Assembly (NCBI RefSeq): GCF_017355875.1
Contig: NZ_JAFEWC010000001.1
Span: forward strand, 1-64,000
From: Aridibaculum aurantiacum
Lineage (GTDB): Bacteria; Bacteroidota; Bacteroidia; Chitinophagales; Chitinophagaceae
Direction: 5' to 3'
DNA: 64,000 nucleotides
How positions within the stretch are numbered: position 1 is the stretch's first letter; each line of letters starts with the position of its first letter. The notes under the pieces are model-generated. The model did not search any database. It was not told the DNA's origin and saw only the letters and a program-made list of their open reading frames with translations. Shown piece by piece: positions 5,989 through 11,814 of this stretch. Position numbers and translations under genes: made by a program.

Positions 5989-6021
5989 GATTTTTGATTT
6001 CAGATTTAAGATTTCAGATTT
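5989..6021. repeat. Low-complexity GATTTNAGATTT repeat
   Basis: The stretch is built of GATTT-A/C-AGATTT units of a kind common between Bacteroidota genes. It runs into the last codons of the nucleoside phosphorylase gene, so the C-terminal residues NLKS are encoded by the repeat. Confidence 0.5.
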
Positions 6022-6851
6022 GAAACTCCGTGAATACTTTTAACGACTTCAGCAAATAGTTGGCTCAGTTTAGCATCTGCCTTTCCTGCTACTTCTATTA
6101 TCTCAGCTATATCCACCGGCTTCAGGTTATCAGGATCACATTCATCAGTAATAACTGAAACAGCCGCACAAGGAATACCTGCCTGGTTAGCCACTATCAC
6201 TTCAGGAACTGTACTCATGCCTACCAGGTCAGCACCTATGTTCCTGAGGTAGCGATATTCTGCTCGTGTTTCCAGGTTTGGACCTATAACAGAAGCATAT
6301 ACTCCTTCATGAAGATGAAGACCTAATTCAGCTGCTTTGTTTTTAAAAGCCTTAGCAAGGACAGGTGAATAAGGCTGGCTCATATCAGGAAAACGTGAAC
6401 CAAAGGCAGGATCTGTAAGACCACGCAGCGGGTTCTCCGGTTGAAGATTTATATGGTCATCCAGCAGTACCAGGTCACCTTTTTTGTAAGCACTATTTAT
6501 ACCTCCTGCAGCATTGCTAAGCAGCAGCTGTTTTATTCCAAGCTCCTTCATCACCCTTATGGGAAATGTGATCTGCTGCATGCTGTAGCCTTCGTAGTAG
6601 TGAAAGCGCCCTTGCATAGCAAGCACTGTTACGTCACCTATTTTGCCATAAACCAGCTGCCCTTTATGAAACTCTACAGTGGCAATAGGAAAATGAGGTA
6701 TCTCGTGGTAGGGAATAGTTTTTTCAACTTCTATATGTTGCAGTAATTGTCCCAAGCCTGTTCCTAATACAATACCTGTAGAGGGCGATAAAATTCCATT
6801 TTTTATAAGGTATTGAGCTGTATCGTGTATCTTCTGCAGGTAATTTTCCAT
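6006..6851 (-). CDS. Purine nucleoside phosphorylase, PNP/MTAP class
   Basis: 281 residues. It splits purine nucleosides with phosphate into a free base and pentose 1-phosphate. The phosphate-binding loop 'VLGTGLG', 'QGRFHYYEGYS', 'SNAAGGIN' and 'VGMSTVPEVIVA' place it in the trimeric PNP/MTAP class. The base-contact Glu is present (Glu194 in GPNLET). At the specificity position, where human PNP has Asn243 in 'ITNK', this protein has Asp236 (VITDECDPDN). Asp is what MTAP uses to bind 6-aminopurines, so adenine nucleosides are a plausible substrate (inference). It is divergent from the arsenosugar genes across 95 bp, which suggests a shared control region. Confidence 0.9.
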   Translation of the reverse strand: MENYLQKIHDTAQYLIKNGILSPSTGIVLGTGLGQLLQHIEVEKTIPYHEIPHFPIATVEFHKGQLVYGKIGDVTVLAMQGRFHYYEGYSMQQITFPIRVMKELGIKQLLLSNAAGGINSAYKKGDLVLLDDHINLQPENPLRGLTDPAFGSRFPDMSQPYSPVLAKAFKNKAAELGLHLHEGVYASVIGPNLETRAEYRYLRNIGADLVGMSTVPEVIVANQAGIPCAAVSVITDECDPDNLKPVDIAEIIEVAGKADAKLSQLFAEVVKSIHGVSNLKS

Positions 6852-6946
6852 AGCGTTTAATAAACAATAAAACTAAAGCAAATGTTTATTCGTAAAGAAT
6901 ATTCAGATTTTACATCATTGGCCTTAGCTTCATAAAAAACTATTAC

Positions 6947-7282
6947 ATGAGTAACCACTACTACAACGCCACAGACCTGGGCAAGTTTGGAAACATCACA
7001 GACTTTCAAAAAGAGGCAGGAGAAAAATTCTTTGCATGGTATGGAGAAGTATTTAAAGACAGTGCACTTTCAGCAAGAGAGAAATCATTGATAGCATTGG
7101 CAGTGGCTCATGCCGTACAGTGTCCGTATTGTATAGATGCCTACAGCAGCGATGCCTACGAGAAAGGTTATAGTGAAGAGCAAATGATGGAAGCCGTACA
7201 CGTAGCAGCCGCCATTCGTGGAGGCGCATCATTGGTACACGGTGTACAAATGATGAACAAGGTGAAAGAAATAGCGATGTAA
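6947..7282 (+). CDS. Arsenosugar-associated AhpD/CMD-like protein
   Basis: 111 residues of the carboxymuconolactone decarboxylase/AhpD fold. The redox motif C59-P-Y-C62 lies in 'AHAVQCPYCIDAY', followed by the helix 'EAVHVAAAIRGGASLVHGVQM' that shapes the active site. This subgroup (peroxidase-like, found beside ArsS) is a recognised companion of the arsenosugar radical-SAM enzyme, and arsS lies 70 bp downstream on the same strand. Its biochemical role is not established; a thiol redox partner of ArsS or of an arsenic intermediate is possible. The assignment is strong because family and context agree. Confidence 0.88.
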   Translation: MSNHYYNATDLGKFGNITDFQKEAGEKFFAWYGEVFKDSALSAREKSLIALAVAHAVQCPYCIDAYSSDAYEKGYSEEQMMEAVHVAAAIRGGASLVHGVQMMNKVKEIAM

Positions 7283-7351
7283 TCTCAAATAGATTTAGAA
7301 TACCCGAAGCCAGCTTCAGGTTTGGATTAGCAGCAGGCATAAAACAGCAAC

Positions 7352-8401
7352 ATGAAGTCATTAAAAGCACAGGGAAGTAATTTAGCAGATGCACTTACAC
7401 AGGTAGATATACTGGAGCATGGCTATGGCGATTCTTTCAAGCTGGTCCCTTTCCAGGAGAAGCTGCAGAACGTTGGCTTGTTGCCTTTGCGCCCAACCAA
7501 CATTAATATCTTCCAGGTGAACGTTGGTAAGATGTGTAACCAGGTGTGTAAGCATTGCCATGTAGATGCTGGTCCTGATCGTAAAGAGATAATGACCATT
7601 GAAACCATGCAGCAATGCCTGGATGTGCTGGCCGCAAACCCGCAACTAAATGTAGTAGATCTTACAGGTGGTGCGCCTGAAATGAACCCCAACTTCAGGT
7701 GGTTTGTGCAGGAAATAAGAAAGCTGGACAGGCACGTGATCGTTCGCTGCAATCTTACCATCATTCTTGCCAATAAAAAATACCACGATCTGCCGCAGTT
7801 CTACAAAGAGCATAAGATAGAGGTGGTTTCATCGTTACCTTTTTATACGCAAGACCGAACCGACAGGCAGCGCGGCAACGGTGTGTTTGAAGACAGCATC
7901 AAAGGCCTGCAAATGCTGAACGAAGTTGGTTATGGTATAGAAGGAACAGGATTAACGCTGAACCTTGTGTACAATCCTGCCGGCGCTTTTCTTCCTCCAT
8001 CGCAAACTGCATTGGAAGCTGAGTATAAGCAGGCGCTGATGGAGCGATACAACATCCGATTCAACCAGCTTTTTGTGATAACAAATATGCCCATCAGCCG
8101 ATACCTTGACTACCTGCTGCAAACGGGTAACTATGATAAGTACATGGAAAAGCTCACGAATGCTTTCAACCCTGCAGCGGCAGCAAACGTGATGTGTCGT
8201 AGTACGCTGTCAATCGGTTGGGATGGCTATATCTATGACTGCGATTTCAACCAGATGCTGGAAATGAAAGTTGATGCATCCTCACGGCATATTTCTGCAT
8301 TTGACCTGGCAGCACTTCAACAGCGCCCAATCGTTATCAATCAACACTGCTTTGGATGCACTGCCGGATCGGGTAGTAGCTGTGGTGGAGCCGTAACTTA
8401 A
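7352..8401 (+). CDS. arsS: Arsenosugar biosynthesis radical SAM protein
   Basis: 349 residues. ArsS joins the 5'-deoxyadenosyl group of S-adenosylmethionine to dimethylated arsenic, the key step toward arsenosugars. The radical-SAM cluster motif C62-x3-C66-x2-C69 (MCNQVCKHCH) is followed by 'DLTGGAPEMNPNF'. The C-terminal Cys-rich segment 'CFGCTAGSGSSCGGAV' is typical; some relatives carry selenocysteine in this region, here all positions are Cys. It sits in a run of + strand genes (AhpD-like, arsS, DUF2064 glycosyltransferase, acyltransferase) with gaps of 16-70 bp, which looks like one operon. No arsM methyltransferase is in the window. Confidence 0.93.
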   Translation: MKSLKAQGSNLADALTQVDILEHGYGDSFKLVPFQEKLQNVGLLPLRPTNINIFQVNVGKMCNQVCKHCHVDAGPDRKEIMTIETMQQCLDVLAANPQLNVVDLTGGAPEMNPNFRWFVQEIRKLDRHVIVRCNLTIILANKKYHDLPQFYKEHKIEVVSSLPFYTQDRTDRQRGNGVFEDSIKGLQMLNEVGYGIEGTGLTLNLVYNPAGAFLPPSQTALEAEYKQALMERYNIRFNQLFVITNMPISRYLDYLLQTGNYDKYMEKLTNAFNPAAAANVMCRSTLSIGWDGYIYDCDFNQMLEMKVDASSRHISAFDLAALQQRPIVINQHCFGCTAGSGSSCGGAVT

Positions 8402-8418
8402 TCCTTAAAATTGCCAGT

Positions 8419-9039
8419 ATGGAATCTGCCATCACAAAAGCGCTCATCATATTTGTTAGGAATACGGAAAAAGGAAAAGTAAAGACACGTATAGCCAAAG
8501 ATCTTGGAGATGACAAGACACTGGAAGTATACAAGTATCTTCTCCAGTATACTGCTGATATTGCCAATACGGTCAACTGCCACCGCTTTGTTTTCTACTC
8601 AGATTATGTGCACATCAGCGACCTGTTTGACGACAAGTGTTTTACCAAGTTTGTGCAGGAAGGAAATGATCTTGGCGAGCGTATGCATAATGCATTAGAG
8701 AAAGTTTTTTCACTGGGTCATAAAGAAGTTTGCATTATCGGCAGTGATTGCTATCAACTGCAGCCAGATCATATAGATGAAGCTTTTGCAGAACTGGAGA
8801 GCCACGATGTGGTTGTAGGTCCAACTACAGATGGGGGTTATTATCTACTGGGGATGAAACAGGCAAACCTCAGGTTGTTTCAGCAAAAGGATTGGGGCAC
8901 TTCTACTGTATTTGACGATACAGTGGCCGACCTTACGCAGCTACAGTTGAAGTACAAAGAATTGGAACAACTGGACGATGTGGATACCATGGATGATTTA
9001 TTAGCTACAGATATTCTGGCTAATCTATCTTCAGATTAA
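8419..9039 (+). CDS. TIGR04282-type arsenosugar glycosyltransferase (DUF2064)
   Basis: 206 residues, nucleotidyl/glycosyltransferase-A-like fold. Motifs are the N-terminal 'ALIIFVRNTEKGKVKTRIA', where the K-G-K-x-K-T-R pattern replaces the nucleotide-binding loop, 'EGNDLGERM', 'IIGSDCYQL' and 'GPTTDGGYYLLGM'. The family is tied to ArsS-type gene clusters, and here it begins 17 bp after arsS. It would act on the sugar part of the arsenic nucleoside product; the donor and acceptor are not known. Translation coupling with arsS is likely. Confidence 0.88.
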   Translation: MESAITKALIIFVRNTEKGKVKTRIAKDLGDDKTLEVYKYLLQYTADIANTVNCHRFVFYSDYVHISDLFDDKCFTKFVQEGNDLGERMHNALEKVFSLGHKEVCIIGSDCYQLQPDHIDEAFAELESHDVVVGPTTDGGYYLLGMKQANLRLFQQKDWGTSTVFDDTVADLTQLQLKYKELEQLDDVDTMDDLLATDILANLSSD

Positions 9040-9055
9040 TTAAATCTGCTGCGGC

Positions 9056-10087
9056 TTGGGATATCAAATTCTAAAACTATACGTTCGCTTCATGATGTGG
9101 TTGTTCTGCAACCGCGTTTCCTTCAATAAAAAAGAGCTGCTGGATGTAAAAGGTCCTTTGCTTATAACCGCCAATCATCCGGACTCTTTTTTTGATGCAC
9201 TAGTGCTGGTGGTACAGTTTAAACAGCAGGTGCACTTCCTGGCGCGGGGCGATGTTTTTATAAAGAAAAGAGTTGCCGCTGTGCTTCGTTGGTTGGGCCT
9301 CATCCCCATTTACAGGATAACAGAAGGAGCACAAAACCTTCACCTGAATGAAGAAACCTTTGAAACCTGCAGGCAGTTGTTTCGAGAAGGAGGTATTGTG
9401 CTGATTTTCATAGAAGGTCTGTGCGAGAACAATTGGGTCTTGCGTCCTTTTAAAAAAGGAGCGGCAAGACTGGCTACCAGTAGCTGGGCCGGCGACGGAA
9501 TGGAAAATGAACTGCAGGTGATGCCATTAGGCATATCGTATAACCACTACCGCGGCTTTGGAAAAAACATAATTGTGGAGATGACAGACCCTGTGAGGAA
9601 GGAGCAGCTTCAATTGGAAGGTGAGGGAGCTACAGCGGTCAATATGTTCAATATCCACATGAGAAATATGATCAGCCAGTTGATGGTAAGATTGGATACT
9701 GCGGTGAAACAGAAAAAGATAAATGCAGCCTTTGCTCAGGCCACTTCTACTGTAGCAGTAAAAGAAGCCTTATATGCTGATCGTCCAAGAAAAGTGAAAG
9801 CTGGTTCTTTATTATGGTTTATCCCGGCAGCTCTTGGGGCTTTTGTTCATGCGCCACTTTATATTCCACTAAGTCAATTGGTAAAGAAGAAAACAAAAGG
9901 AACTGTTTTCTATGATTCAGTATTGTTCGCCTCACTATTAGTTTGCTACCCGCTATACCTGTTACTATTGTTCCTGCTCTTGTGGCATTATGCTGGAGGA
10001 TTGGTTGCTTTACTGGCTACACTGGCAGCACCTCTACTGGCACGAGCTGCAGTTGTATATCGTGCGCAGCATACTACTTCACTTTAG
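9056..10087 (+). CDS. Glycerol-phosphate/1-acylglycerol-phosphate acyltransferase (PlsC-like)
   Basis: 343 residues if started at the TTG at 9056, which is 16 bp after the upstream stop; an ATG at 9092 is the alternative. The acyltransferase block 'ITANHPDSFFDAL' has His41 and Asp47 separated by five residues rather than the classical four, as in the Gat/Sct1-like branch. The second block is 'FIEGLCENNWVLRPFKKGAARLA'. Two or three membrane segments are at the C-terminus (from about residue 260). It would transfer acyl chains to a glycerol-phosphate or lysolipid at the membrane. Its place at the end of the arsenosugar operon suggests acylation of an arsenosugar-glycerol species (inference). 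Confidence 0.82.
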   Translation: MGYQILKLYVRFMMWLFCNRVSFNKKELLDVKGPLLITANHPDSFFDALVLVVQFKQQVHFLARGDVFIKKRVAAVLRWLGLIPIYRITEGAQNLHLNEETFETCRQLFREGGIVLIFIEGLCENNWVLRPFKKGAARLATSSWAGDGMENELQVMPLGISYNHYRGFGKNIIVEMTDPVRKEQLQLEGEGATAVNMFNIHMRNMISQLMVRLDTAVKQKKINAAFAQATSTVAVKEALYADRPRKVKAGSLLWFIPAALGAFVHAPLYIPLSQLVKKKTKGTVFYDSVLFASLLVCYPLYLLLLFLLLWHYAGGLVALLATLAAPLLARAAVVYRAQHTTSL

Positions 10088-11108
10088 ACAAGCTCATCAT
10101 GCCAATCATCCAATCAGGCAGTGGGGTGTTCTTTTTTCTTTTCTTCAGGTCAAAGTACCAGTTGAGTTTTTTCAAGATGGGCACCTTATGTGTTTCCACC
10201 AACTCTATCAATGTACCATCCGGATCTTCTATATAAGCAAACCTGCCGGCAGAAGTTCCCATGCTAAAGCTATCGGCACTATCTACAGTAAACGGTTGGG
10301 CAGATGCAGTAGCTTTTTGCTTTAGCGCATCCATATCTGTTACATCGAAGCATACATGTATAAAGCCACAGTCGCCCCAGTAGCGGTTAGCATAGATCTT
10401 AGATGGCTCCCTGTCCAGGCACTGAACCAGTTCTATTTCTACATCGCCCAGTAATTTGGAAAAGGCACCGCAGGGTGTAAAAGTTTTATGCAACAGCACA
10501 CGCCTGTACTGCTCGTTACTAATGGTAGGAATATCATCAAAAGTCCCGGTAACATCAAATACCACTTCCTGCAGGTCAAGCAGGTCTTTGTAAAAAGCAA
10601 CCGAACGCTCCATATCACTTACGCCTATCACCACACCCAGTACACCACCAACACAGTGGCGCGTAGTTTTAAACTTCTGGTGATACTCTACTACCTGGAA
10701 GTTGTTGCCGTTGATATCTTTCATCCACGATGACCTTTGGCCATGCGGAGACACAGTGACGGGTGCATAGGAAGGGAAATTTTCTGCAAGACTATCTATA
10801 TCGCAGGAGCGCATTTTTACTCCGTAAATGCCAATATCTCCATAGGTAGGTTGAGTAAATGGAAAAGCAGGTTGCCTGCTTTGGAATTGCCAAAGTTCAA
10901 AACCACCACCACCCTGCATATTCAGTGTAAGAATGGCTTCGCGTGAATGTACCTCGTTGCCGGTGTAGCGTGTCATGAGGCTTGCTTCTGCTTTGTCCTC
11001 AAACACCAGCACATCCATACCAAAAAGGTCTTTGTAATAATGCTTTGCTTCCTGCGCGTTCACAACGCCAATGCCTACCTGTTGTATGCCGGTTACTAAC
11101 GATTTCAT
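10074..11108 (-). CDS. Double VOC (glyoxalase-fold) protein
   Basis: 344 residues with two vicinal-oxygen-chelate modules, roughly residues 1-135 and 145-305. Each starts with the typical 'GVGVV...AKHYYKDLFGMDV' or 'GVVIGVSDMERSVAFYKDLL' helix-strand pattern, and the second ends 'FAYIEDPDGTLIELVE', with the metal-ligand Glu. Members include dioxygenases, lyases and epoxide or arsenic-resistance enzymes, so the reaction is open. It lies 1 bp downstream of the glycosyltransferase gene and shares its transcript, and its 3' end overlaps the convergent acyltransferase gene by 14 bp. Context suggests a role in arsenosugar metabolism (inference). Confidence 0.8.
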   Translation of the reverse strand: MKSLVTGIQQVGIGVVNAQEAKHYYKDLFGMDVLVFEDKAEASLMTRYTGNEVHSREAILTLNMQGGGGFELWQFQSRQPAFPFTQPTYGDIGIYGVKMRSCDIDSLAENFPSYAPVTVSPHGQRSSWMKDINGNNFQVVEYHQKFKTTRHCVGGVLGVVIGVSDMERSVAFYKDLLDLQEVVFDVTGTFDDIPTISNEQYRRVLLHKTFTPCGAFSKLLGDVEIELVQCLDREPSKIYANRYWGDCGFIHVCFDVTDMDALKQKATASAQPFTVDSADSFSMGTSAGRFAYIEDPDGTLIELVETHKVPILKKLNWYFDLKKRKKNTPLPDWMIGMMSLSKVK

Positions 11109-11109
11109 G

Positions 11110-11814
11110 TTACCTGTAATTAAGGAGCCTCTTGTAAGTCATGGCCATTTCTTCATCTGATGCTTTGCCACTCTTCCACATCTTCATTACCCTGTAATTA
11201 GCATATAACACTTTGAAGTAGCTATTGGTTTCATATTTACGTGCACTTACCAATATATCTTTTGGAATTATTTTGAAACGGTATCCTGCTTCTTTAGCAC
11301 GCTTAATAAAATCATATTCTTCCATGATCCGCATACTCCTGTAGCCATCCAGATTTTCAAAAACCTGTCGCTTTACAAACAAGGTTTGATCGCCGCCCCT
11401 ACACCATATAAATGGAAACCTGGTAAAAAAGCTATTCACCTTTAGCAGCGGGTGATCGCTGTCGAACTTATACCGATAACAACCCATATCATACCCTTCT
11501 TTCAAAGCCGCGGCTATGTCTGTTATATAATCAGGGTGGATCTTTACATCAGCATGAACAAAATATAAGATCTCTTCAGGGCACAGGGAAGCAGCATAAT
11601 TCATTTGCGCAGCACGTGAGCGTTGTGGAGATACAACAGCAAGATCGGCTCCGGTGTCCTTAGCTTCCTGCAGTGTATCATCAGTACTTCCACCATCACT
11701 TACAATTATTCGCATGGAAGCTTCTCGCTTATTCTTCAGCAACGACGTGACCAGGTTGCCAATGGAGCCTGCTTCGTTGTAAGTAGGAATGATAACAGCT
11801 ATGTTCATGTGCAA
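11110..11814 (-). CDS. TIGR04283-type arsenosugar glycosyltransferase (GT2)
   Basis: 234 residues of a GT-A glycosyltransferase. The N-terminus 'IAVIIPTYNEAGSIGNLV' and 'IIVSDGGSTDDT' bind the nucleotide sugar, and the DxD-like 'FVHADVKIHPDY' holds the metal. The C-terminal 'ILVSARKYETNSYFKVLY' is the signature of the TIGR04283 subgroup, which co-occurs with ArsS. It is on the minus strand, first in a two-gene transcript with the VOC protein. With the DUF2064 enzyme it could place the glycerol or sugar on the arsenic nucleoside; the division of labour is unknown. Confidence 0.88.
   Translation of the reverse strand: MHMNIAVIIPTYNEAGSIGNLVTSLLKNKREASMRIIVSDGGSTDDTLQEAKDTGADLAVVSPQRSRAAQMNYAASLCPEEILYFVHADVKIHPDYITDIAAALKEGYDMGCYRYKFDSDHPLLKVNSFFTRFPFIWCRGGDQTLFVKRQVFENLDGYRSMRIMEEYDFIKRAKEAGYRFKIIPKDILVSARKYETNSYFKVLYANYRVMKMWKSGKASDEEMAMTYKRLLNYR

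Follow-up and report, generated by a model that had tools for sequence, protein, structure and literature searches.

The window analyzed here, a 64,000-nucleotide stretch of DNA from Aridibaculum aurantiacum, carries an arsenosugar-type locus in which a purine nucleoside phosphorylase (PNP) adjoins the gene for the radical SAM protein ArsS. The locus was confirmed with all genes at the positions given by the initial annotation. The phosphorylase gene (6006-6851, reverse strand), a proposed arsenonucleoside phosphorylase gene, encodes 281 amino acids, and its product scored above the curated cut-offs of two PNP I models, NF006054 (347.8 bits, cut-off 218) and TIGR01700 (304.8 bits, cut-off 293.35), and below that of the MTAP model TIGR01694 (103.2 bits, cut-off 274.85). 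A 95-bp spacer (6852-6946), in which one pattern search gave no acceptable promoter, separates it from a divergent forward-strand gene for an AhpD-like, arsenosugar biosynthesis-associated peroxidase-like protein (6947-7282; TIGR04169, 173.5 bits, cut-off 120), which is followed on the same strand by the genes for ArsS (7352-8401; TIGR04167, 455.1 bits, cut-off 300), with the motif CxxxCxxC at KMCNQVCKHC in its translation, and for a TIGR04282 protein (8419-9039; DUF2064, CofC-like; 204.5 bits, cut-off 134), proposed to be a nucleotidyltransferase acting on a sugar 1-phosphate. The coordinates agree with the divergent arrangement described earlier. A TIGR04283 family 2 glycosyltransferase (GT2), the proposed arsenoribose transferase, is encoded at 11110-11814 on the reverse strand (192.9 bits, cut-off 182).

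Four of the five families of the NCBIfam arsenosugar locus (TIGR04167, TIGR04169, TIGR04282, TIGR04283 and NF038099) are present in the window and the fifth is elsewhere in the genome, where an arsenosugar-type ArsM was identified (C3:80026-80988; 563.5 bits, cut-off 400). To this set the window adds the phosphorylase, which matches no arsenosugar-named NCBIfam model and whose best models are those of purine-nucleoside phosphorylase. Based on gene linkage and active-site residues, this enzyme probably catalyzes the de-adenylating step of arsenosugar biosynthesis, in which the product of ArsS would be split into adenine and a sugar 1-phosphate.

Neighboring genes were identified in the loci of the 80 nearest ArsS relatives, which are not a random sample and may share species with the genome samples described below. 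An AhpD-like gene was found in 68 of these loci, TIGR04282 in 36, ArsM in 32, PNP in 24 and TIGR04283 in 22, and the largest gap between the reading frames of PNP and arsS was 2.4 kb. Sixteen of the 24 linked PNP genes lie on the same strand as a cluster gene and no more than 93 bp from it, one is on the same strand at 928 bp, and seven are on the opposite strand; seven of the 16 close ones overlap a cluster gene when reading frames are taken from the first start. The six-gene run AhpD-ArsS-TIGR04282-TIGR04283-ArsM-PNP is found on one strand in two genomes (G111 and G083), and the culturable relative Flavobacterium turcicum (L014) likewise has a linked PNP. Loci with PNP more often contained TIGR04282 (17/24 vs 19/56 of the others; p 0.003) and ArsM (17/24 vs 15/56; p 0.0004), both values being uncorrected for kinship. 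Genes for DUF547 and rhodanese (NF045521) proteins also recur in ArsS loci (19/80 and 12/80, respectively) and accompany PNP (L078 14966-15757, 11026-11541).

Among 198 genomes of the class, ArsS was found over its cut-off in 32, at least 10 of which have a PNP gene within about 2.4 kb; the linkage extends to 8 of the 20 ArsS-containing families. Among 198 genomes of the order, 57 have ArsS and at least nine a linked PNP, the linked genomes coming from two families only (f1 and f68). Both linkage counts are lower bounds, low-scoring PNP matches being incompletely covered; for the class, PNPs of 26 genomes were added, but not every second copy. By chance about 0.07 linked genomes would be expected in the class sample and 0.13 in that of the order, according to a rough model with about 1.1 PNP per 3.8-Mb genome and with genomes that are related. 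The question raised by the initial annotation, namely how often this gene neighbors arsS in other genomes, can thus be answered: far above chance and in several gene orders. A good share of the sampled Bacteroidota have the phosphorylase as part of their arsenosugar locus.

The PNP sample of the class comprised 202 rows, fragment loci L263-L265 being excluded. A FastTree phylogeny of 202 PNPs placed all 34 linked rows in one clade of 47 rows (support 96). In an IQ-TREE phylogeny of 87 rows, which excludes L297 (a 49-residue fragment) and L091 (the same as L074), all 41 linked rows, including one duplicate (L308, the same as L051), fell in a clade of 57 rows with an SH-aLRT support of 98 and with unlinked members inside it. 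A grouping of the linked rows as one clade was rejected (p-AU 7e-10), unlinked members being interspersed, a pattern that would fit either gain or loss of the linkage. ArsS was present in 13 of the 22 class genomes with a PNP of this clade vs 18 of the 144 other genomes with PNP (p 4.9e-6, kinship ignored). Three of the unlinked clade members (in G108, G062 and G307) still adjoin TIGR04282 and DUF547, with DUF547-TIGR04282-PNP runs located away from arsS in G108 and G307. In the remaining 13 unlinked loci, 10 from the class and three from the order (G361, G263, G345), the 13-16 kb stretches searched contained no TIGR04282, DUF547, ArsM or ArsS.

A second phosphorylase family was found in ArsS clusters of other bacteria. 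Plasmids encoding ArsS were found in six genera, with Burkholderia accounting for 47 of the 52 records; one record per genus was compared, for Burkholderia one of the 47. The ArsS clusters of Burkholderia glumae, Cupriavidus KK10 and Acinetobacter portensis, all of which include TIGR04282 and TIGR04283, were found to encode MTAP-family enzymes scoring above the TIGR01694 cut-off. In B. glumae the genes for TIGR04282, TIGR04283 and MTAP lie about 6 kb from arsS. The order in Cupriavidus KK10 is ArsS, FAD oxidoreductase, an unassigned frame, TIGR04283, TIGR04282 and MTAP, and in A. portensis it is MTAP, phosphate transporter, ArsM-like (below cut-offs), TIGR04282, TIGR04283, DUF547, oxidoreductase and ArsS. 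Two MTAPs of Azospirillum, by contrast, are encoded beside mtnA. With PNP in the loci of Bacteroidota and MTAP in proteobacterial clusters, two phosphorylase families are thus associated with arsenosugar clusters. Plasmid-borne MTAP-family genes of Mycetohabitans and Pantoea (L294 4977-5888; L295 4983-5867) have aminotransferase, desaturase, HAD and NUDIX neighbors in similar order, hinting at another product derived from a 5'-deoxynucleoside.

An AlphaFold2 model of the window PNP had a mean pLDDT of 90.4, and the PDB structures closest to it were 4m1e, 4lna and 8swt, with TM-scores of 0.91-0.93 normalized by query length. The residues identified in the protein were Thr31, His62, Arg82, His84, Tyr86, Leu193, Glu194, Met212, Asp236 and Ile248. 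The first five correspond to the phosphate and ribose residues of PNP I, which in the human enzyme are Ser33, His64, Arg84, His86 and Tyr88, and are kept apart from the change of Ser to Thr, while Glu194 retains human Glu201. In fold, in these residues and in the Glu the window PNP is thus like the trimeric PNP I enzymes (4m1e, 4lna, 8swt and human PNP). It differs from human PNP and 8swt in having Ile248 for His257 and Leu193 for Phe200; 4lna and 4m1e have Leu at both columns, so that His257 is not universal in PNP I. It also differs from the trimeric enzymes in its location in an arsenosugar locus, a His257-type PNP with Asp at the Asn243 column being encoded elsewhere in the genome (C1:1201559-1202365).

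In the initial annotation Asp236 was taken as the basis for an activity on 6-aminopurines particular to this locus, with the caveat that Asp might be common in PNPs of Bacteroidota. Glu194 and Asp236 do align with human Glu201 and Asn243, so that no other residue occupies the Asn243 column. The caveat, however, was borne out: Asp was present in 198 of the 202 PNP rows, ArsS-linked or not and including the second PNP of the genome, and Asp236 is ruled out as a marker of arsenosugar PNPs. The PNP of Bacteroides fragilis (8swt), with Asp at the 243 column, was crystallized with Immucillin H. As Immucillin H is an analogue of the hypoxanthine type, a preference for 6-aminopurines does not follow from Asp alone. 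Cleavage of adenosine is reported for N243D variants of the calf and human enzymes (PMC6274182), and cleavage of adenosine prodrugs for the human E201Q:N243D variant (PMC2799393). Tandem PNPs in G014 (L267 6376-8026), a genome without ArsS over the cut-off, have Asp and Asn, respectively, at 243 and both have Leu at 257.

Judging from the alignments, the more informative difference is Ile248, which was not listed in the initial annotation. It is the first residue of the last helix in the model and occupies the column of human His257. In human PNP, His257 contacts the 5'-hydroxyl of the nucleoside. All 34 ArsS-linked rows first aligned have a hydrophobic residue in this column (Ile in 30, Leu in three, Val in one), together with Leu at Phe200, Asp at Asn243 and Ile at Val260. 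The unlinked rows of this alignment, among them the solved structures, have His at this position in 75 cases and a hydrophobic residue in 68. According to a report on inhibitor complexes, His257 of human PNP lines a pocket together with Phe200 and with Phe159 of the adjacent subunit (PMC10226123). In a study of Schistosoma MTAP that draws on earlier work, the preference of MTAP for 5'-deoxy and 5'-substituted nucleosides is linked to a 5' site that is hydrophobic and offers no hydrogen-bond partners (PMC5147791).

Human MTAP has Val233 in the His257 column and Asp220 in that of Asn243, so that Asp236 and Ile248 of the window PNP recall MTAP at both positions, a combination that fits a 5'-deoxy-5'-substituted adenosine as substrate. 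The likeness has its limits. MTAP has Ser178 at the Glu201 column, where the window PNP has Glu194 and the MTAP-family enzyme of Cupriavidus has Gly; the TD[ED]C stretch of the linked PNPs (28/34 rows) is one residue shorter than TDYDC of MTAP; and no mtnA was matched in the window genome.

Since the window PNP is over the cut-off of the 6-oxopurine model TIGR01700, retains Glu194 and shares its Asp at 243 with the B. fragilis enzyme that was crystallized with Immucillin H, it might be a duplicated PNP for the salvage of inosine, guanosine or adenosine which rides in the cluster with no role in the pathway. We regard this as quite improbable: the linkage is repeated in several gene orders and with overlapping reading frames, the His257 contact has been lost while a second, His257-type PNP is present in the genome, and MTAP-family enzymes are found in ArsS clusters elsewhere.

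The window genome (4.86 Mb, 5 contigs) encodes five PF01048 proteins, namely the two PNPs, a futalosine hydrolase, an AMP nucleosidase and a protein resembling uridine phosphorylases that scored below the cut-offs of the models. None of the three that are not PNPs was over the MTAN or MTAP cut-off, and the genome had no match to MTAN at E 1e-30 or to mtnA at E 1e-40. In the class sample mtnA, whose product acts on 5-methylthioribose 1-phosphate, was found in 22 of 198 genomes. Of the 77 genomes with a PNP that is hydrophobic at 257, 17 have mtnA, compared with 4 of the 89 others (p 0.0008, uncorrected for kinship), an association which agrees with the hydrophobic residue indicating a 5'-deoxy-5'-substituted substrate. 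A hydrophobic residue at 257 is ruled out as a marker of ArsS linkage alone, 71 of the 105 such rows in the 202-row set being unlinked and the residue tracking mtnA too.

As hydrophobic 257 tracks mtnA, PNPs of this type may serve 5'-deoxynucleosides generally, and the window phosphorylase could then act in clean-up, removing the 5'-deoxyadenosine (and methylthioadenosine) formed by ArsS or other radical SAM enzymes and not the arsenic nucleoside. Such a role would suit the scarcity of MTAN, for which just 5 of the 198 class genomes had a match above the cut-off, the window genome not among them, and 5'-deoxyadenosine is reported to inhibit radical SAM enzymes (PMC8102628). It is nevertheless unlikely, as linked PNPs accompany TIGR04282, ArsM and DUF547 and not bare AhpD-ArsS loci, and as mtnA was not detected in any of the 10 linked genomes of the class and, across the clade, occurred at the background rate (3/22 vs 18/144, p 1). 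One linked genome (G085) has an MTAN of its own, and the arsenic nucleoside likewise requires an enzyme for the loss of its adenine.

The ArsS product is thus the most likely substrate of the window phosphorylase, as predicted from its residues and neighbors. That product is of the 5'-deoxyadenosyl-dimethylarsenic type. PNPs convert a beta-nucleoside to an alpha-sugar 1-phosphate by inversion, CofC-like nucleotidyltransferases retain the configuration and GT2 enzymes invert it. In the proposed pathway, arsenite would be dimethylated by ArsM (encoded at C3:80026) and the 5'-deoxyadenosyl group joined to the dimethylated arsenic by ArsS. Phosphorolysis by the PNP, with inversion, would then yield adenine and 5-deoxy-5-(dimethylarsinoyl)-alpha-D-ribose 1-phosphate, with Ile248, in place of the His that contacts the 5'-hydroxyl, making room for the arsenic group at the 5' end of the pocket. 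Phosphorolysis rather than hydrolysis would keep the anomeric carbon activated as the sugar 1-phosphate, which the CofC-like TIGR04282 protein may convert to a nucleotide sugar; the inverting TIGR04283 enzyme could then transfer the sugar to glycerol or a glycerolipid to give the beta-riboside found in nature. Inversion, retention and inversion would produce beta-ribosides, the configuration of the arsenosugars of seaweed and bacteria; arsenosugars are listed as 5-dimethylarsenoyl-beta-D-ribofuranosides (PMC10456119). Adenosylation of arsenic by a radical SAM enzyme has been reported (cited in PMC12159101). What the phosphorylase acts on, what it yields and what TIGR04282 and TIGR04283 do are predictions from the genes, residues and recurrent linkage observed and from the MTAP-family enzymes seen elsewhere. 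Cleavage of the arsenic nucleoside to a sugar phosphate, as put forward in the initial annotation, therefore stands as the best reading, with a linkage that recurs beyond chance; its foundation in Asp236 does not.

The TIGR04282 protein scored 40.4 bits against the CofC model TIGR03552 (below its cut-off of 105) and 38.2 bits against PF01983 (above its cut-off of 22), and had a single relative in the PDB (3cgx). The wider proposal is a tentative one, to which we give somewhat less than even confidence: the PNP branch would be a dedicated arsenonucleoside phosphorylase, with MTAP recruited in proteobacteria, TIGR04282 would be an NDP-arsenoribose nucleotidyltransferase and not a glycosyltransferase, and TIGR04283 would be the inverting transferase.

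The presence of ArsM in 17 of the 24 PNP loci could also be accommodated by a role in arsenate handling, in which arsenolysis by PNP and thiol-dependent reduction of arsenate would feed arsenite to ArsM. Reduction of arsenate to arsenite in vitro has been attributed to PNP, its role in vivo being given as unknown (PMC12608789). The reaction is reported for ordinary PNPs, which leaves the changed 5' pocket and the MTAP-family enzymes in other ArsS clusters unexplained, and we consider this role very improbable.

Several observations weigh against the assignment of the phosphorylase to de-adenylation of the ArsS product. The pairing of ArsS with the PNP clade is expressed by a statistic that ignores kinship, and 9 of the 22 class genomes with a clade PNP, as well as 3 of 13 in the order sample (the 13 include G361, assigned by its score alone), had no ArsS over the cut-off. 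In one genome (G062, L269 6436-9056) a PNP-TIGR04282-rhodanese-DUF547 run was found with no ArsS over the cut-off and no AsSugarArsM at E 1e-40. TIGR04283 was not significantly associated with PNP (9/24 vs 13/56, p 0.27). When only the 52 loci extending 5 kb to either side were considered, the link with TIGR04282 weakened to p 0.077, that with ArsM staying at 0.0023. Six queries in all frames revealed neither PNP nor another PF01048-type frame in 56 of the 80 ArsS loci, nucleoside hydrolases not having been specifically searched. Likewise, no PNP or MTAP was found in the stretches covered of three of the six plasmid-borne ArsS loci (Pseudanabaena, Thiodictyon and Hymenobacter), although TIGR04282 and TIGR04283 are present in that of Thiodictyon. 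A hydrophobic residue at 257 is not restricted to linked enzymes, as noted above, and independent-pair tests of this residue against mtnA, ArsS or either gave no significant result (four to six pairs), the pairs for ArsS leaning the opposite way (1.1 vs 0.3 on average). Finally, Glu194 where MTAP has Ser178 argues against a purely MTAP-like base pocket.

Replacement of PNP by another PF01048 enzyme was rejected for the 56 PNP-free loci by the same six queries. Of 20 further stretches, 16 hold arsS, and 15 of these had no PF01048 enzyme by the six queries; in the remaining one (G206), arsS lies about 7.4 kb from a PNP gene that most resembles the housekeeping type. In twelve of these 15 further PNP-free loci, all of the order, the queries revealed ArsS, either alone or with AhpD, and no further gene.

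Two more genes lie between TIGR04282 and TIGR04283 in the window. The first (9056-10087, forward strand; PF01553, E 1.1e-16) encodes a 1-acylglycerol-3-phosphate-type acyltransferase, which possibly serves arsenolipid formation. The second (10074-11108, reverse strand; PF00903, E 4.2e-14) encodes a two-domain VOC/glyoxalase-fold protein; it adjoins the TIGR04283 gene, and relatives were found in 11 of the 80 ArsS loci. Elsewhere in the window genome (L236 368-2466) the arsenosugar-type ArsM gene adjoins a transporter gene that resembles phosphate and sulfate permease genes but scored under the cut-off of either model, and in the A. portensis cluster (L292 10862-13034) the ArsM-like gene is beside the annotated phosphate transporter. 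Arsenate uptake may be coupled to the arsenosugar pathway.

Arsenosugars are described as the main form of arsenic in seaweeds (PMC5478658). For an alga, an adenosyl nucleosidase has been proposed for the removal of adenine, the account at hand assigning no gene to it (PMC10456119), and the portions of the open-licence literature surveyed named no gene for this step of the arsenosugar pathway. If the assignment proposed here is true, a pathway step without a named enzyme would be filled by an enzyme from a clade of its own, with a modified 5' pocket and with counterparts of the MTAP family in other bacteria, and the neighboring TIGR04282 protein would be recast as the likely sugar-activating enzyme.

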